Assembly: GCF_002835825.1 (NCBI RefSeq)
Contig: NZ_PIZH01000033.1
Span: forward strand, 1-10,344
Length of the DNA: 10,344 nt
Direction: 5' to 3'
From: Methanoregula sp.
Lineage (GTDB): Archaea; Halobacteriota; Methanomicrobia; Methanomicrobiales; Methanospirillaceae
Shown piece after piece: positions 1,760-8,767 of this stretch (position 1 is its first letter; the number at the start of each line of letters is the position of its first letter). The notes under the pieces were generated by a model. The model was not told where the DNA came from. It saw nothing but the letters and a program-made list of their open reading frames with translations, and did no database searches. A program made the translations under genes and the position numbers.

Positions 1760-1834
1760 TAGCGAGGGATGGATTTGAACCATCGATCTACGGGTTATGA
1801 GCCCGTCGGGATATCCTGACTACCCTACCTCGCT
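1760..1834 (-). tRNA. Initiator tRNA-Met (anticodon CAT)
   Basis: Read on the minus strand, this is a complete 75-nt cloverleaf. The acceptor stem is AGCGAGG/CCTCGCT, the anticodon arm ACGGG-CTCATAA-CCCGT, and the T arm GATGG-TTCAAAT-CCATC, with discriminator A. Two features mark it as the initiator rather than elongator Met or Ile2: the A1:U72 pair at the acceptor end, and three consecutive G:C pairs (GGG/CCC) next to the anticodon loop. CCA is not encoded, because the genomic bases after the discriminator read CTGG. No intron is present. A TATA-like element lies at about 1869-1880 on the same strand. Confidence 0.95.
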
Positions 1835-2432: not shown

Positions 2433-4247
2433 ATGGGCGAGACGGGAACTCCTTTATCGAAGATCGTCAAGTCCCTCGGGCTCGTATTCGGGGATATCGG
2501 GACGAGCCCCATCTACACGATGGGTGCGGTCATGCTCTTCATGATCCCGTCCTCGTTCAACATCTTCGGCCTCCTCTCCCTTGTCACCTGGACGCTCCTT
2601 ATCGTCATCTCTGTCCAGTACATCTGGCTTGCGATGTCGCTCTCCGATAAGGGTGAGGGCGGGACAATCGTTCTGAAAAATATCGTTGATACGCTTTTGC
2701 AGCCCGGCATTGGTGCGTCTGCGGTTTCGGTCCTCACTATCATCGGGATCGCCCTCTTCATCGGCGACGGGGTGATAACCCCGGCGATCAGTATTCTCTC
2801 GGCAGTGGAGGGAATTGCCCTGATACCCGGGTTCGAGGAGACCTCCCAGGTCACGCTCCTCCTCATCGCGGCCGCGATTGCCATCGGGCTCTTCCTCTTC
2901 CAGAAGCGCGGAACCGATCGCGTTGCCTGGACGTTCGGCCCGGTCATGGTGGTCTGGTTTGCCGCCCTCGCCCTCTCCGGGGCCATCTCCATCATCGCTG
3001 CCCCGCAGGTCCTGTATGCCTTAAGCCCGACCTATGCCATTGATTTCATTCTCGACAATGGCTGGGCATCGATGATGGTCATGTCGGCAGTCATCCTCTG
3101 TGTCACCGGCGGCGAAGCGCTGTATGCCGACATGGGTCACCTGGGCAGGGAACCGATTGTCAAGGGCTGGGTCGTGGTCTTCCCGGCACTCGTGCTCAGT
3201 TATCTGGGGCAGGGGGCGTACGTCATGCAGACGGACAATACCCATAATGTCCTCTTTTCCATGATCAATCACATCAATCCCCTGCTCCTGGTCCCGTTTT
3301 TAATCCTCTCCGTCTGCGCCACGGTCATTGCGTCGCAGGCGATGATCTCCGGCATGTTCTCGATCATGTACCAGGGAATGATGAAGAAGATCATCCCCAA
3401 GATGAAGATCGAGTACACCTCCCCCGAGCTCCGGTCCCAGATCTATATCGATGCGGTCAACTGGATGCTCCTCTTTGGCGTTCTCCTCGTCATCTTCGAG
3501 TTCCGGTCCTCGGAGAACCTCTCGGCCGCGTACGGCCTTGCCGTCTCGGGCTCGATGATGATCTCCGCCATCCTGATGACGATCATCTTCTTCAAGAGGA
3601 ACCAGAACATCAAGATGCTCATTGCCGGCTCATTGTTCGTCCTCGACGCGATCTTCTTCATCTCCACACTCTTCAAGATCCCCCACGGCGCGTACTGGTC
3701 GTTTTTCATCGCCACGATCCCGCTGATCGTCATCGTCACGTTCATCCTCGGCCAGGACAGGCTTCATGCAATCCTCCGCCCGGTCCCGATCGAGGAGTTC
3801 CTCCCCAAGTACAAGGAGAGTTACGCGAACCTGCACAAGATCCGCGGCACCGCCCTTTATTTCGTCGGGGATATCCACCGGCTCTCCCCGTACCTCTCCC
3901 AGGTCATCTTCAAAAACGAGATCCTGTACGAGAACAACATCCTCGTCTCCATCCAGATCACGGAGAAGCCGTTTGGCATCACCACGGACTTTGATACCGG
4001 GATAGCTCCCGGCCTCCATATCTTCCGGGTCACGTGCGGGTACATGGAGATCGTGGACGTAGTGAAGCTGCTGCAGGAGAAGGGCATTGACGAGAAGACG
4101 ATCTTCTACGGCATCGAGAGCGTGGTCTCCGACACGCTCATCTGGAAGATCTACGGCATCATCAAGAAGAACACCCCGCCGTTCATCCAGTTCTATGCTC
4201 TTCCCCCGGAGAAAATCCACGGCGTCGTGACCCGGGTCGTGATGTAA
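2433..4247 (+). CDS. kup: KUP/HAK-type potassium transporter
   Basis: This integral membrane protein of 604 residues takes up K+, probably with protons. It carries the family signatures in order: GLVFGDIGTSPIYT at residues 16-29; FIGDGVITPAISILSAVEG at about 107-126; TGGEALYADMGHLG at about 224-237 (most family members have TGAEALYAD here); and SYLGQGAYVMQ at about 256-266. About 12 hydrophobic segments fill residues 10-450. A hydrophilic cytosolic C-terminal domain follows to 604, similar in length to E. coli Kup (about 620). The ATG at 2433 places the conserved GDIGTSP motif at the expected distance from the N-terminus. Shine-Dalgarno support is weak (CTGGGA). Codon use is strongly biased to ATC and CTC, as in a well-expressed native gene. 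It forms its own unit 77 bp after thioredoxin. Confidence 0.96.
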   Translation: MGETGTPLSKIVKSLGLVFGDIGTSPIYTMGAVMLFMIPSSFNIFGLLSLVTWTLLIVISVQYIWLAMSLSDKGEGGTIVLKNIVDTLLQPGIGASAVSVLTIIGIALFIGDGVITPAISILSAVEGIALIPGFEETSQVTLLLIAAAIAIGLFLFQKRGTDRVAWTFGPVMVVWFAALALSGAISIIAAPQVLYALSPTYAIDFILDNGWASMMVMSAVILCVTGGEALYADMGHLGREPIVKGWVVVFPALVLSYLGQGAYVMQTDNTHNVLFSMINHINPLLLVPFLILSVCATVIASQAMISGMFSIMYQGMMKKIIPKMKIEYTSPELRSQIYIDAVNWMLLFGVLLVIFEFRSSENLSAAYGLAVSGSMMISAILMTIIFFKRNQNIKMLIAGSLFVLDAIFFISTLFKIPHGAYWSFFIATIPLIVIVTFILGQDRLHAILRPVPIEEFLPKYKESYANLHKIRGTALYFVGDIHRLSPYLSQVIFKNEILYENNILVSIQITEKPFGITTDFDTGIAPGLHIFRVTCGYMEIVDVVKLLQEKGIDEKTIFYGIESVVSDTLIWKIYGIIKKNTPPFIQFYALPPEKIHGVVTRVVM

Positions 4248-4378: not shown

Positions 4379-5020
4379 ATGGACATCGGGCTCGTCATCC
4401 AGGGAATCATCGTCGGTCTCATCCTTGCCGTACCGGTCGGGCCGCTGTCCCTCGTCTGCATCCAGCGGACCCTTTCTTCCGGCAGGCTGCACGGCCTTCT
4501 CTCCGGGTTTGGCATAACCGCTGGCGATTCCGTGTATGCGGGCATCGCGTTCCTCGGGCTTGCCGCCATCTCCGGTTTTATCCTCTCGTTTGAAGTCCCG
4601 CTCAGGATCTTCGCGGGGCTGGTCCTCATTGCAGTCGGGGTGAGGATCATCGGGTTTGTCCCCGACCGCGGTCAGGACAAGACCGGCCAGGGCCGGTATT
4701 CAAAGGACTTTTTCTCGATGCTCGCCCTTGCGCTTGCAAACCCGATGACGCTCGTCTTCCTGATGGTGACCCTCCCGGGCTATGGTTTTGTCTTTGGCGG
4801 GACCTCGCTCTTCTCGGCAGGCTGGTTTGTCTCAGGATTCATTGCTGGCTCGGCATTGTGGTGGGTTATCCTGTGCGGGGTGGTCGGGTCGTTCCGTGCC
4901 CGGCTCACCGAAAGGAACCTGACCCTGATCAACCATGCCTCCGGTCTCTTCATTGCCGGTATCGGGGTGGTCATGATCCTCGCGCCAGTCCTTGCACTGG
5001 CGGGGATCGCCAGTCCGTGA
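4379..5020 (+). CDS. LysE-family translocator (amino-acid or metabolite exporter)
   Basis: This protein of 213 residues has about six hydrophobic segments, the normal size and layout for the LysE/RhtB family of exporters. The first segment leads into PVGP at residues 19-22 (family PGP-type motif), followed by QRTLSSGRLHGLLSGFGITAGD, matching the conserved SxxxGRxxGLxxGxGxxxGD pattern. The mid-protein ALANPMTLVFLM matches the family's second conserved block (LxNPxxxxFF-like). The substrate cannot be assigned, because the family covers lysine, homoserine, threonine, cysteine metabolites and others. The ATG at 4379 has no clear Shine-Dalgarno, but it is the only start that keeps the whole first helix. 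The 131-bp spacer before it holds possible alternative hairpins. Confidence 0.88.
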   Translation: MDIGLVIQGIIVGLILAVPVGPLSLVCIQRTLSSGRLHGLLSGFGITAGDSVYAGIAFLGLAAISGFILSFEVPLRIFAGLVLIAVGVRIIGFVPDRGQDKTGQGRYSKDFFSMLALALANPMTLVFLMVTLPGYGFVFGGTSLFSAGWFVSGFIAGSALWWVILCGVVGSFRARLTERNLTLINHASGLFIAGIGVVMILAPVLALAGIASP

Positions 5021-5047: not shown

Positions 5048-5060
5048 GAAAATATATTTT
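5048..5060 (+). promoter_or_regulatory. Promoter of the aIF1A gene
   Basis: A strong archaeal TATA box, AAATATATTTT, is preceded by a purine-rich GAAGAA stretch that could serve as the TFB recognition element. Its centre near 5055 predicts a transcription start around 5080-5085 and a leader of about 40 nt before the proposed CTG start at 5122. That leaves room for the Shine-Dalgarno at 5109-5113. Confidence 0.6.
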
Positions 5061-5108
5061 CTGAAGCGCCAATAATTAAGCACGTACGAGCCGTCGTAAC
5101 GGGATCAC

Positions 5109-5113
5109 GGGAG
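5109..5113 (+). promoter_or_regulatory. Shine-Dalgarno that decides the aIF1A start
   Basis: GGGAG (core GGAG at 5110-5113) ends 8 nt before the CTG at 5122, normal spacing for that codon. The in-frame ATT at 5116 would leave only 2 nt. The first ATG of the frame (5200) lies far downstream, inside the conserved domain. Confidence 0.6.
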
Positions 5114-5121
5114 AGATTCCA

Positions 5122-5430
5122 CTGACAGAGAAGAAACCGGCAGCACCTCCGGGCGATGAGATCGTCAGGGTCAGGCTGCCCCAGAAACGCAACCGGGAGA
5201 TGTTCGGCAGTGCCGAGCTCATGATGGGTGCAAACCATATCCGCGTCCGCTGCTTTGACGGTGTGACCCGGATGGGAAGGATCAAGGGAAAGATCAAGAA
5301 GAAAGTCTGGATCCGGGAGGGCGATATCCTGATTGTCATCCCGTGGAACTTCCAGGATGAAAAATGCGATATCGTGTACCGCTACACCGGCCCGCAGGTC
5401 GAGTGGCTCCGGCGGAATAAGTACCTGTGA
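5122..5430 (+). CDS. eif1A: Archaeal translation initiation factor 1A with a CTG start
   Basis: The reading frame encodes aIF1A, the archaeal homologue of eIF1A and bacterial IF1. It is an OB-fold protein that binds the A site of the small ribosomal subunit during initiation. From 5122 the product is 102 residues, a normal length. It begins TEKK after the initiator and continues with RVRLPQKRNREMFG, the OB core GANHIRVRCFDG, KGKIKKKVWIREGD, PWNFQDEKCDI and QVEWLRRNKYL, all family hallmarks. No ATG, GTG or TTG occurs in frame between the upstream stop (5077-5079) and 5200, where an ATG would cut off the first conserved block. CTG at 5122 has a well-spaced GGGAG and gives the usual (M)TEKK start. 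It has its own strong TATA promoter and an oligo-T terminator, so it is monocistronic. ATT at 5116 is the only nearby alternative and is badly spaced. Confidence 0.93.
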   Translation: MTEKKPAAPPGDEIVRVRLPQKRNREMFGSAELMMGANHIRVRCFDGVTRMGRIKGKIKKKVWIREGDILIVIPWNFQDEKCDIVYRYTGPQVEWLRRNKYL

Positions 5431-5559: not shown

Positions 5560-6363
5560 CTAGAGCGAGCGGATGATCACTTCGTATTGCTTGATTACCA
5601 GCCGGCTGGTTTGTGGCAGTTCGTATTCCAGTGGTTGTCCCGTTCCCGATCCGGGGGTTCCTGAGTTCCGTGACATTCCCAGGGTTTGCCGGAGGTAATT
5701 ATCCCAGGCAACCGAGTAATCCTTCACGCTGTCGGGAGTATACGTGAGATAGATGGGGACGAGCCCGGTGGTATCGTAGTTATCAAACCGGGTCTCGCCC
5801 AATGCCATCTGCACGGTGCCGATACCATCCCGGGCCATCAGGCCGTTGCTTGTCAGATTTACCAGGTTGATGACCAGGGTTTTCGTCTGCCCGTCGTAGA
5901 ACCACCGCGGTTCAGCAAGCATTACCGAACCCTGATTCTGACGCTTCACAACAGCGCCGTTCTGGAGTGAAACTTCTGTATTGGCAGATGCGGAGGAGTA
6001 GGTAAGATCCCCGGACCTGAAATCAGTGACAAAGATGACTCCATTCGCATCGCGGATCGTAATCTTTGAGGCCGGGGGAGTATGGTGTGAATTGTATATT
6101 GTCAGGGCCCCACCTCCGATCTTGAGCGAGGTCTCCTTGTAAGGGACGGTCTTGTACGCGAGGCTTTTTACATCGTTCTGGAGCACGATCATGTTCTTTT
6201 CCATGATCTGCTCATCGGCGCTCGTCTGCTGCTGCATCAGCAGCGGGTACCCGTACAGGGTCACAAGGCCGATGCCTGCCATCATCAGGGTAAAGATGAG
6301 GAGAAACCCTATGGACTCCGATACGCCCTCGGTGCATGGTGCCTGGATTTTTCTCTTTGTCAT
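5560..6363 (-). CDS. Pilin-like exported protein, last gene of the surface operon
   Basis: This protein of 267 residues has a basic N-terminus (MTKRK), then EGVSESIGFLLIF and one membrane helix at about 18-42. The rest is predicted outside the cell. The GVSESIG start is much like archaeal pilins and the pilin-like SE(T/V)xG proteins of haloarchaea (DUF7289-type, from memory). Cleavage by the archaeal prepilin peptidase after G13 would leave glutamate at +3. The exported part is rich in beta-prone stretches and contains an NLTS glycosylation sequon. ATG at 6363 overlaps the previous stop as ATGA and has GGAGG 6 nt upstream. It is probably a minor pilin or pseudopilin subunit. The exact family and function are not settled. 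Confidence 0.8.
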   Translation of the reverse strand: MTKRKIQAPCTEGVSESIGFLLIFTLMMAGIGLVTLYGYPLLMQQQTSADEQIMEKNMIVLQNDVKSLAYKTVPYKETSLKIGGGALTIYNSHHTPPASKITIRDANGVIFVTDFRSGDLTYSSASANTEVSLQNGAVVKRQNQGSVMLAEPRWFYDGQTKTLVINLVNLTSNGLMARDGIGTVQMALGETRFDNYDTTGLVPIYLTYTPDSVKDYSVAWDNYLRQTLGMSRNSGTPGSGTGQPLEYELPQTSRLVIKQYEVIIRSL

Positions 6364-6833
6364 ACGAATCCTCCGGAATTGTAACTGATCCTGTTCATAC
6401 CGCTGCCCGTGGTATTCCCGCCTGCCCTGCGCGTGGATCCTATCCCGGCAATTGCCACGTTGGCTGTAACCGTAGTGCCGCTGATGCGCACGGTCTGGGC
6501 AGAAAGGTCCTCGCCATAGAGATTCCCGACCTCGACCAGGTAGCCTTGCCCGGCAACTTCATCCGGGATGTCGAACCGGGATGTGATATTACCGTTTGCC
6601 GGTGCGATGGCATAGATGTCAACGATTCTTGTCGAGATCCCGTTGCTGATGTCGGTATATGCCGAGTACGTGATGGTTTTTGCGGGCATTTCCATGAAAT
6701 GCGTGTTCGTGAGAAGGAGTACAACGATGAACAGGCCGGTGAGAACGCCGGAGATCAGGATGTACTCGATCAGGTTTGCCACACCTGCGTCAGTCTTTGT
6801 CCCGTGGTTCTTATTCGGATCGCCAGGTCTCAT
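6360..6833 (-). CDS. Small pilin-like exported protein
   Basis: This protein of 157 residues has a charged 15-residue N-terminus, then DAGVANLIEYILI and a membrane helix at about 25-45. ANLIE resembles the start of type IV pilins, with glutamate at +5 if cleavage follows V18, or +6 after G17. The exterior domain of about 110 residues has NIT and NTT sequons and a Gly/Thr-rich tail. The start at 6833 is supported by GGAGTGA 9 nt upstream. The gene overlaps the previous one by 23 bp and its stop overlaps the next start by 4 bp, so translation is probably coupled throughout. It resembles haloarchaeal DUF7266-type proteins in layout (tentative, from memory). It probably forms a complex with the neighbouring products. 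Confidence 0.78.
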   Translation of the reverse strand: MRPGDPNKNHGTKTDAGVANLIEYILISGVLTGLFIVVLLLTNTHFMEMPAKTITYSAYTDISNGISTRIVDIYAIAPANGNITSRFDIPDEVAGQGYLVEVGNLYGEDLSAQTVRISGTTVTANVAIAGIGSTRRAGGNTTGSGMNRISYNSGGFV

Positions 6834-7182
6834 TGTATGCCGTCACTCCGTTGTTGTAATGCATTTCAATATGGGTGTACGGATCCGATCCCGCCGGAGG
6901 TGAAGAAGAGAATTCTACCACGGCGTTATGCCTGCTTAAGGACAGGTTCCGTATCTCCCTCTGCACGTTGGTTTTATCGTTTTCATCACCAAGGAATTCC
7001 GACTGGATGATCATGCCCCGGACCTCACGGATATCGGTTTTCGGGAATTCCGAGACCGCTTCAGCCGTGGTCTGTCCTACGATCGTTGACTGGTTGATCA
7101 GTATCGCGATAAAGAACAGGGCAAAACTCACGATAAATCCCATCAGCACGATCCACTGTGCATCATCGTTCAGTCGCGCCAT
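6811..7182 (-). CDS. Short pilin-like membrane protein
   Basis: With the start at 7182 this is a 123-residue protein. MARLNDDAQWIVLM leads directly into one membrane helix at about 10-31 (aromatic and aliphatic), followed by an outside domain of about 90 residues. The frame stays open to an earlier ATG at 7263. That start would add a cysteine- and arginine-rich stretch that only mirrors the neighbouring gene in another frame, whereas 7182 has GGAGG 9 nt before it. The NQST, NLSL and NETW sequons are all on the predicted outer side. The DDAQW segment just before the helix takes the place of the acidic pilin residue. It overlaps the upstream gene by 13 bp and the downstream gene by 23 bp. No enzyme motif is visible. 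Function is inferred from the operon only. Confidence 0.78.
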   Translation of the reverse strand: MARLNDDAQWIVLMGFIVSFALFFIAILINQSTIVGQTTAEAVSEFPKTDIREVRGMIIQSEFLGDENDKTNVQREIRNLSLSRHNAVVEFSSSPPAGSDPYTHIEMHYNNGVTAYNETWRSE

Positions 7183-7679
7183 ACTAACGCCTCCACAAGT
7201 ACTGCATGCTTGCCGGAAGTGACGTCCGAACAGAGTGGACAGGGGCTGTCGACAATGACCCACTCGGTTACCCTGACGGCATGTTCCCTTCCCGTGAATA
7301 TATGGGAGGATGCGCCCAGGGGGACATCGCCGACGGTTCCATCTGACCGTTCGTAGGTCACGTTTGCCATGAACTGGATGCGATCCCTGCCGGTGCCGGT
7401 CTTTGCATTCACGATACTGTCAAACATCTCCTGGAACTGTACAGCATCGCCCGTTTCAATGATGGTCCGCAGAGATGTTTTTTCCACCGAACTGTTGGGT
7501 GCAGTATTCATCATCTTCAGTGCATCATCCCCCACAACTTCGAGCTGCATGTCGCTGATGTGGGTGTCCCCCATCGTATAAACAGATGTGGAGTTCACCA
7601 CGATGTACGCCGTAAGGAGGAGGATCAGGGCTGCTGCAACCCCCTCGATAGTGTATAGCTGTCCGTCGGCATTTACCAT
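7170..7679 (-). CDS. Pilin-like exported protein with a CPLC motif
   Basis: This protein of 169 residues has an N-terminus reading ADGQLYTIEGVAAALILLL. LYTIE followed by a helix at about 13-32 is close to the classic FTLIE start of type IV pilins, with E12 at +5 or +6 depending on the cleavage site. The layout matches haloarchaeal GQAHTLEG-type proteins (DUF7288, from memory). The outer domain contains NST, NSS and NVT sequons and, near the end, CPLC at 147-150, which could form an exported disulfide or bind metal. The start at 7679 has GGAGGTG 5 nt upstream. It overlaps the preceding stop by 7 bp and the next start by 13 bp. It is a likely structural subunit of the same surface complex. Confidence 0.82.
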   Translation of the reverse strand: MVNADGQLYTIEGVAAALILLLTAYIVVNSTSVYTMGDTHISDMQLEVVGDDALKMMNTAPNSSVEKTSLRTIIETGDAVQFQEMFDSIVNAKTGTGRDRIQFMANVTYERSDGTVGDVPLGASSHIFTGREHAVRVTEWVIVDSPCPLCSDVTSGKHAVLVEALVWRD

Positions 7680-8767
7680 ACCGCCACCTCCAACACCGCA
7701 TCTTTGAGTTCAGGCTGCGTGACATTCACCGGGTTGTAGTCATACAGGAAGGGCCGGGTGTGGGTATTGTTCAGGAACTGCTGTTCCGGGACCACTTCAA
7801 AGGTCAGGTTGATAAAGATCGTGTCATCCGTGCCTGCGTTAATGAAAAAGCCCGGATCAAATACCAGTGCCACATCCTTTGAAAAACTCGCCGGAGGAGT
7901 AACGGGAGTTCCTTCTCCGTCCTTATAGAGGAAACTCCCGTATGATGCTGCAGGAACGACAAACGGGTCGAGTGTGGACTTCCCATACGATTTCGTGAAG
8001 AATTGGACGTTTGACACGGACATGGTCAGAGCTGAACCTTGTTTATCCGGGGCCCGGGATTCTTCCAGGTCCGTGATATTGATGATGATCCTCTCCCTGA
8101 GCGGGTTGATGCGGTACGCGGCAGCACCAGTCGGCCTCTTCAGAAATCCCACATCATCGAATAACAGGGACGAGGTATTGATCATAATCGAGAACCGGTG
8201 ATGCCCAACTTCCTCTGTATTATTATATCCATATGCTTCGATGAGTGTCTTCCCGATCGTAGCATTGCTTCCGCTCCTGGTTTTTACCGCCCTGCGTATT
8301 GAGCCATACTGGTAAAATTCCGGGATGACATCGCCGACAGACATCAGGGTATCTTTTCCTGTCTCTTGTAAGGAAATATTGAACCGGTACGGGAAATCCC
8401 CGAATATTGCCCGTTTCTGGTAATCTGCTGGATAGGTGAAATCCACGGTGTTGAAAAACCGGTGTACCTTACTTTCATCGAGAATGTTGGGGGTATCTTT
8501 TGCAATGGCAAGGCCGAACCGGGCAATATTGAGCTTGTTTTTCTGCAGTTCCCAGGGTATGCTTGCATCCGCTGAGGGACTGACATCCCCGGGATCCTCG
8601 ACAAGGATAACTCCAGTCCGGTAGGCCACGGCATCGAAATCGATCGTGTGGGACTGGATCCCAAGAAAAAGCCCCGGGATCATGGTTGCCACCCAGATGA
8701 ATGCAAGGATGAAAATGGTAAATCCGACCAGGAAGTCTACGGACATTGCACCGGCATCGTCAGTCAT
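7673..8767 (-). CDS. Large pilin-like exported protein with many sequons
   Basis: At 364 residues this is the largest product of the operon. A short acidic start (MTDDAGAMS) precedes VDFLVGFTIFILAF and one membrane helix at about 12-33. D11 takes the place of the acidic pilin residue. The remaining 330 residues are predicted outside the cell and rich in beta-strand-like segments, with about eight N-glycosylation sequons (for example NIS, NAT, NTS, NIT, NLT, NVT). The STDFLVG-like opening is shared with a haloarchaeal pilin-like family (DUF7287-type, tentative). The start ATG overlaps the stop of the upstream gene by 8 bp, and the nearest GGAG is rather far away (15 nt), so translation probably depends on coupling. 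It may be the tip or main exposed subunit of the complex. This role is inferred. Confidence 0.8.
   Translation of the reverse strand: MTDDAGAMSVDFLVGFTIFILAFIWVATMIPGLFLGIQSHTIDFDAVAYRTGVILVEDPGDVSPSADASIPWELQKNKLNIARFGLAIAKDTPNILDESKVHRFFNTVDFTYPADYQKRAIFGDFPYRFNISLQETGKDTLMSVGDVIPEFYQYGSIRRAVKTRSGSNATIGKTLIEAYGYNNTEEVGHHRFSIMINTSSLLFDDVGFLKRPTGAAAYRINPLRERIIINITDLEESRAPDKQGSALTMSVSNVQFFTKSYGKSTLDPFVVPAASYGSFLYKDGEGTPVTPPASFSKDVALVFDPGFFINAGTDDTIFINLTFEVVPEQQFLNNTHTRPFLYDYNPVNVTQPELKDAVLEVAVW

Follow-up and report, generated by a model that had tools for sequence, protein, structure and literature searches.

Genomic context of the aIF1A gene

The window, i.e., the whole stretch of 10,344 nucleotides analysed here, carries on its forward strand a coding sequence for the initiation factor aIF1A (5122..5430; 102 codons and a TGA stop, read directly at 5428-5430). 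The encoded protein belongs to the eIF-1A family (PF01176; 75.7 bits against a curated cut-off of 30.2) and matches solved aIF1A chains (1jt8, 4mno, 5jb3), with 1jt8 as best match (E 4.3e-33). The ORF at 2433-4247 (+) resembles a gene for a Kup-type potassium transporter, and the nearby ORFs at 1954-2355 and 4379-5020 may encode a thioredoxin-like protein and a LysE-type exporter, respectively. A tRNA gene is located at 1760-1834 (minus strand; Rfam RF00005, 66.1 bits). A run of ORFs with hydrophobic N-terminal stretches at 5560-8767 (minus strand; 267, 157, 150, 169, and 364 aa) is perhaps a pilin- or archaellum-like cluster.

The aIF1A frame is closed upstream by an in-frame TAA (5077..5079, +). 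Direct reading confirmed the statement of the initial annotation that ATG, GTG, and TTG are absent from this stop to position 5200, and that 5200 lies in the conserved NREMF block. The ATG at 5200..5202 (+) is the first canonical in-frame codon; it is located within the PF01176 match, which begins at 5197, and a start there would cut into the aIF1A domain. The CTG at 5122..5124 (+) is preceded by GGGAG (5109..5113, +), with 8 nt separating its final G from the first base of CTG, also as first described. GGGAG can act as a Shine-Dalgarno (SD) sequence, since the 16S rRNA 3' end of the window's own genome (...GGATCACCTCC) is complementary to GGAG and can pair with it; the SD block is conserved in the 32 loci compared below. 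Initiation at CTG would give an N-terminal tail of the expected length, since residue 3 of the query pairs with residue 4 of P. abyssi chain 4mno in the sequence alignment. The SD score at the window is -7.7, equal to the median (-7.7) of 327 gene pairs from the window's genus, on an energy scale usable for ranking sites only (approximate stacking values, some of those for G-U rough). SD strength is therefore ordinary for the genus and provides no marked compensation for a weak start here.

A TATA-like run, AAATATATTTT (5050..5060, +), is a possible archaeal promoter, and a similar AT run was seen by eye at about the same distance in most Methanoregula-type relatives. Judged from this run, the transcript would start near 5080, with a leader of approximately 40 nt. 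The leader matched no Rfam family, and a scan for bacterial promoters returned nothing.

Start codons in the order and in the phylum

The order sample consisted of the best 80 of 136 named relatives (all 80 counted with the order, four of them titled only 'Euryarchaeota archaeon') and of order genomes, 189 of 199 with a match. Alignment with related Methanomicrobiales, the check suggested in the initial annotation, bore out the CTG: it is the homologous codon in 104 of 141 called order loci, followed by ATT (23), ATC (6), ATA (5), ATG (2), and TTG (1). These calls comprise 121 loci and 20 added ones; two were corrected by hand to the listed second candidate (L015, ATC to CTG; L364, GTG to ATT). 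Nearly all window-type genes that were read have CTG at this codon; one Methanoculleus (L051/L107) has TTG. A second aIF1A paralog has a comparable SD and mostly starts with ATT, ATC, or ATA. Both order loci with ATG (L368 in G011, L369 in G017) are extra copies; both genomes have other aIF1A genes as well, which start with CTG or ATC. The window's genome itself carries a paralog (L002; contig C751, about 2629-2910, minus strand) with an apparent ATT start behind GGAGTTGTT.

The phylum sample, in which chosen matches of further families were read, yielded an aIF1A match in 145 of 148 genomes. Starts were called as the best SD-supported codon 4-32 codons before the RVRLP motif, with seven start-type codons as the only possible returns. 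Under this rule, the 213 non-haloarchaeal loci gave CTG 148, ATT 23, TTG 21, ATG 7, ATC 6, ATA 5, GTG 1, and two uncallable (L170, and L163, where CAG occupies the expected position); the GTG (L181) is uncertain. The start is neither ATG nor GTG in 203 of the 213, and in 182 it is CTG, ATT, ATC, or ATA, i.e., a codon other than AUG, GUG, and UUG behind an SD, as in infC. The non-standard start thus extends far wider than the initial annotation had thought, over most of the non-haloarchaeal sample. Loci were merged only when their 250-bp keys were identical, so that the counts refer to related, not independent, loci and a species may count twice. An earlier tabulation of 193 loci (CTG 133, TTG 21, ATT 19, ATC 7, ATA 5, ATG 5, GTG 1, uncallable 2) differs by one correction and 20 further loci. 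A best-SD scan over all 64 codons also had CTG as the commonest codon (54 of 215 loci) but was noisy, because GC-rich coding sequence contains many SD-like words, and was replaced by the seven-codon scan.

The seven ATG loci belong to four genomes of one genus, g76 (G316, G268, G293, G301), to G216, and to two extra paralogs. The g76 loci (L161, L311, L312, L313) have ATG behind a full GGAGGTGAT; this is the one genus found with that arrangement, and its relatives within the family start with CTG or TTG. Among 22 haloarchaeal loci (families f13, f17, f21, f23, and f25, assigned to the haloarchaea by sequence), ATG was called in 16, GTG in five, and none in one. These calls follow a different rule, nearest canonical codon, because SDs are mostly weak there; the rule cannot return CTG, which weakens the contrast with the other loci.

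On a protein-core tree (fasttree, 89 columns, many forks unresolved), strong (ATG or GTG) and weak starts are separated by five changes, or four without the haloarchaea. A single base change would turn CTG, TTG, or ATT into ATG; that changes between strong and weak are nevertheless few was counted in favor of a selected weak start. The comparison covered archaea of one phylum.

Evidence for initiation at CTG

Codon periodicity was analysed in 32 aIF1A loci of equal N-terminal length, the window included. The 24 nt that precede the SD are without periodicity (mean entropies 1.84/1.87/1.87 and 1.74/1.52/1.76); entropy is 0 at all three bases of CTG, the third included; and codons 2-15 have entropies of 0.78/0.77/1.57, so that third-position variability begins right after CTG. 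The codon is not merely that of a conserved leucine, because the codons for the RVRLP leucine are mixed in 121 order loci (CTG 57, CTC 21, CTT 19, TTG 9, TTA 9, CTA 1), with isoleucine (ATT) as replacement in another five. Among 192 loci, 17 have a stop immediately in front of the start as called (e.g., L056, L034, L019, L048, and L049) and 72 have one within 10 codons; 85 have no ATG, GTG, or TTG at all from the upstream stop to RVRLP (the 192 take in L015, miscalled there, and L163, a weak case). Three NCBI proteins have their Met exactly at the CTG: P0020 (as L041), P0043 (as L066), and P0095 (as L028). Numerous further aIF1A entries in the databases begin far upstream, and the annotated start of so short a protein cannot be relied on.

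Other genes served as controls. The start of aIF1 (SUI1) is ATG in all 30 loci read, from 67 matches listed, and that of uS10 is ATG in 29 and GTG in one of 30 loci read. In a mechanical scan of aIF6, aIF5A, and aIF2beta, all 76 of 76 loci had a canonical codon within the N-terminal range (best canonical codon: ATG 58, GTG 9, TTG 9). Ranking by SD alone placed a non-canonical codon ahead of it in 27 of these 76, so SD scoring by itself proves little.

For a genome control, samples of 800 kb each (0.8 Mb, a part of the genome) from two members of the window's genus were set side by side, with colinearity checked for the first 400 kb. This gave 619 non-overlapping ortholog pairs; coding-type substitutions were present in 554 of the 595 pairs tested. 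The best conserved canonical start was ATG in 441, GTG in 82, and TTG in 23 of the 554; five pairs had no candidate and three no conserved canonical start. The search for conserved CTG, ATT, ATC, or ATA starts gave nine flags in eight pairs, with aIF1A as the only clear case. Six flagged pairs were dismissed by eye because an obvious ATG, conserved in both genomes, lies 8-13 codons further downstream, and pair a2803 (683 codons) was dismissed by eye for conservation that continues upstream. This control is a rerun with set criteria of an earlier one, in which 365 pairs had given 24 rows, mostly weak. CTG starts are thus not general in these genomes, aIF1A being the sole convincing case of 554 pairs.

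Conservation and the gene and genome controls together lend strong support to the original proposal of a non-standard start, and we regard translation of aIF1A from CUG at 5122 as very probable on sequence grounds. Three other accounts of the start were weighed. Initiation at ATT 5116, two codons 5' of CTG, is very unlikely: a related NCBI protein (P0004, MPLTDNKPG...) looks as if annotated in this way, judged from the protein alone, but the ATT is just 2 nt past GGGAG, and in L003 and other relatives GTT takes its place, CTG being the invariant codon. The ATG at 5200, or another downstream codon, is still less probable as a start; being the first canonical codon in frame speaks for that ATG, but it lies within the family domain, the codons 5' of it are conserved except for variation at their third positions, and solved homologues extend upstream. 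As to a sequencing or assembly error, which the initial annotation had raised together with ATG-bearing relatives, the genome is indeed fragmented (814 contigs); however, the same codon in many genomes, including the single-contig genomes G064, G140, G085, and G093, refutes such an error, whose probability we put at next to nil.

Possible control of aIF1A synthesis

A conserved weak start suggests a built-in brake on the amount of aIF1A. We propose that this Methanoregula-type archaeon makes aIF1A from a leadered mRNA with a Shine-Dalgarno sequence, on which translation begins at CUG 5122, a codon that the initiator tRNA would read as Met. CUG would initiate less well than AUG in vivo, and selection would keep the start weak; retention of a weak start (CUG, UUG, or AUU/AUC/AUA) over most of the phylum could be explained if synthesis of aIF1A has to be held at a controlled level. 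Taken together, a CUG start and a selected role for it as a translational brake or control are somewhat favored by the data.

The likeliest mechanism would be feedback, in which initiation at CUG falls and less aIF1A is made when pre-initiation complexes, which contain aIF1A, discriminate strictly, while loose discrimination of start codons would raise its output. Such a loop fits the start-codon pattern and the infC and eIF1 precedents and is plausible, although we put true feedback of aIF1A on its own start at somewhat below even probability. A loop, if any, would sit on aIF1A and not on aIF1, as the latter, although better known as an archaeal fidelity factor, has ATG in every locus read. 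In P. abyssi, the complexes that contained both aIF1 and aIF1A were the most dynamic ones, and in vitro aIF1A stabilised initiator tRNA when aIF1 was absent (PMC6237735). The former would presumably disfavor near-cognate starts; from the latter it follows that extra aIF1A might favor CUG, so that feedback could have either sign. In Haloferax volcanii, two genes encode aIF1A, and the factor is essential (PMC3828320).

Two other explanations accept the CUG start and differ on its role. A weak start may serve only to keep aIF1A low relative to ribosomes, with no feedback; this accounts for conservation and for the exchange of CTG, TTG, and ATT without any sensor. However, low output could presumably be attained otherwise, for instance by a weaker SD or promoter, and the fact that an initiation-factor gene is concerned, a parallel to infC and eIF1, hints at a further role; we consider this static role a real possibility at about one chance in three. 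Alternatively, discrimination by aIF1 or aIF2 might set the use of CUG, so that the output of aIF1A would depend on how abundant or active another factor is, and not on aIF1A itself. In favor of such cross-control, aIF1 promoted discrimination against non-canonical starts in S. solfataricus, as stated in the same source (PMC6237735), and the aIF1 gene itself starts with ATG; we judge it a serious alternative, though an unlikely one.

Returning to feedback through aIF1A, a broader reading, offered tentatively and as one that may well prove wrong, is that the SD-using archaea of the phylum carry an ancient feedback device on this gene, that the weak start reads the stringency of start selection, and that the haloarchaea have lost it; aIF1A rather than aIF1 would then be the regulated, level-setting fidelity factor. 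In any case, a non-standard start has been retained, deep within a single archaeal phylum, on a gene whose own product takes part in start selection, and the loci of this gene supply natural CUG, UUG, and AUU starts for probing the effect of aIF1A on codon discrimination.

Comparison with known systems

A weak start on an initiation-factor gene is a known theme; no paper on a conserved CUG start of aIF1A was found in the open-licence library searched, and the archaeal case appears new. Bacterial infC, encoding IF3, has an AUU start under autocontrol, and eukaryotic eIF1 autoregulates through the poor start context of its own mRNA. With infC, the aIF1A gene shares the function in initiation, the conserved non-AUG start behind an SD, and a product active in start selection; it differs in that aIF1A (as encoded in the window, according to PF01176 and the structure matches) is related to IF1 and not to IF3, in its archaeal host, and in the use of mostly CUG. 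Autocontrol of infC is known in bacteria, whereas its aIF1A counterpart is proposed here from sequence. In S. aureus, infC starts with AUA (PMC13009471). Gene-specific conserved non-AUG starts described for bacteria (by title) are like that of aIF1A in kind. With eIF1, the common element is an initiation factor whose mRNA has a poor start; there, however, an AUG in poor context is met by scanning, while the gene in the window encodes aIF1A, not eIF1/aIF1, and combines a non-AUG codon, CTG, with an SD. If feedback on aIF1A holds true, self-control through a weak start would be found in bacteria (IF3), eukaryotes (eIF1), and archaea, with a different factor in each.
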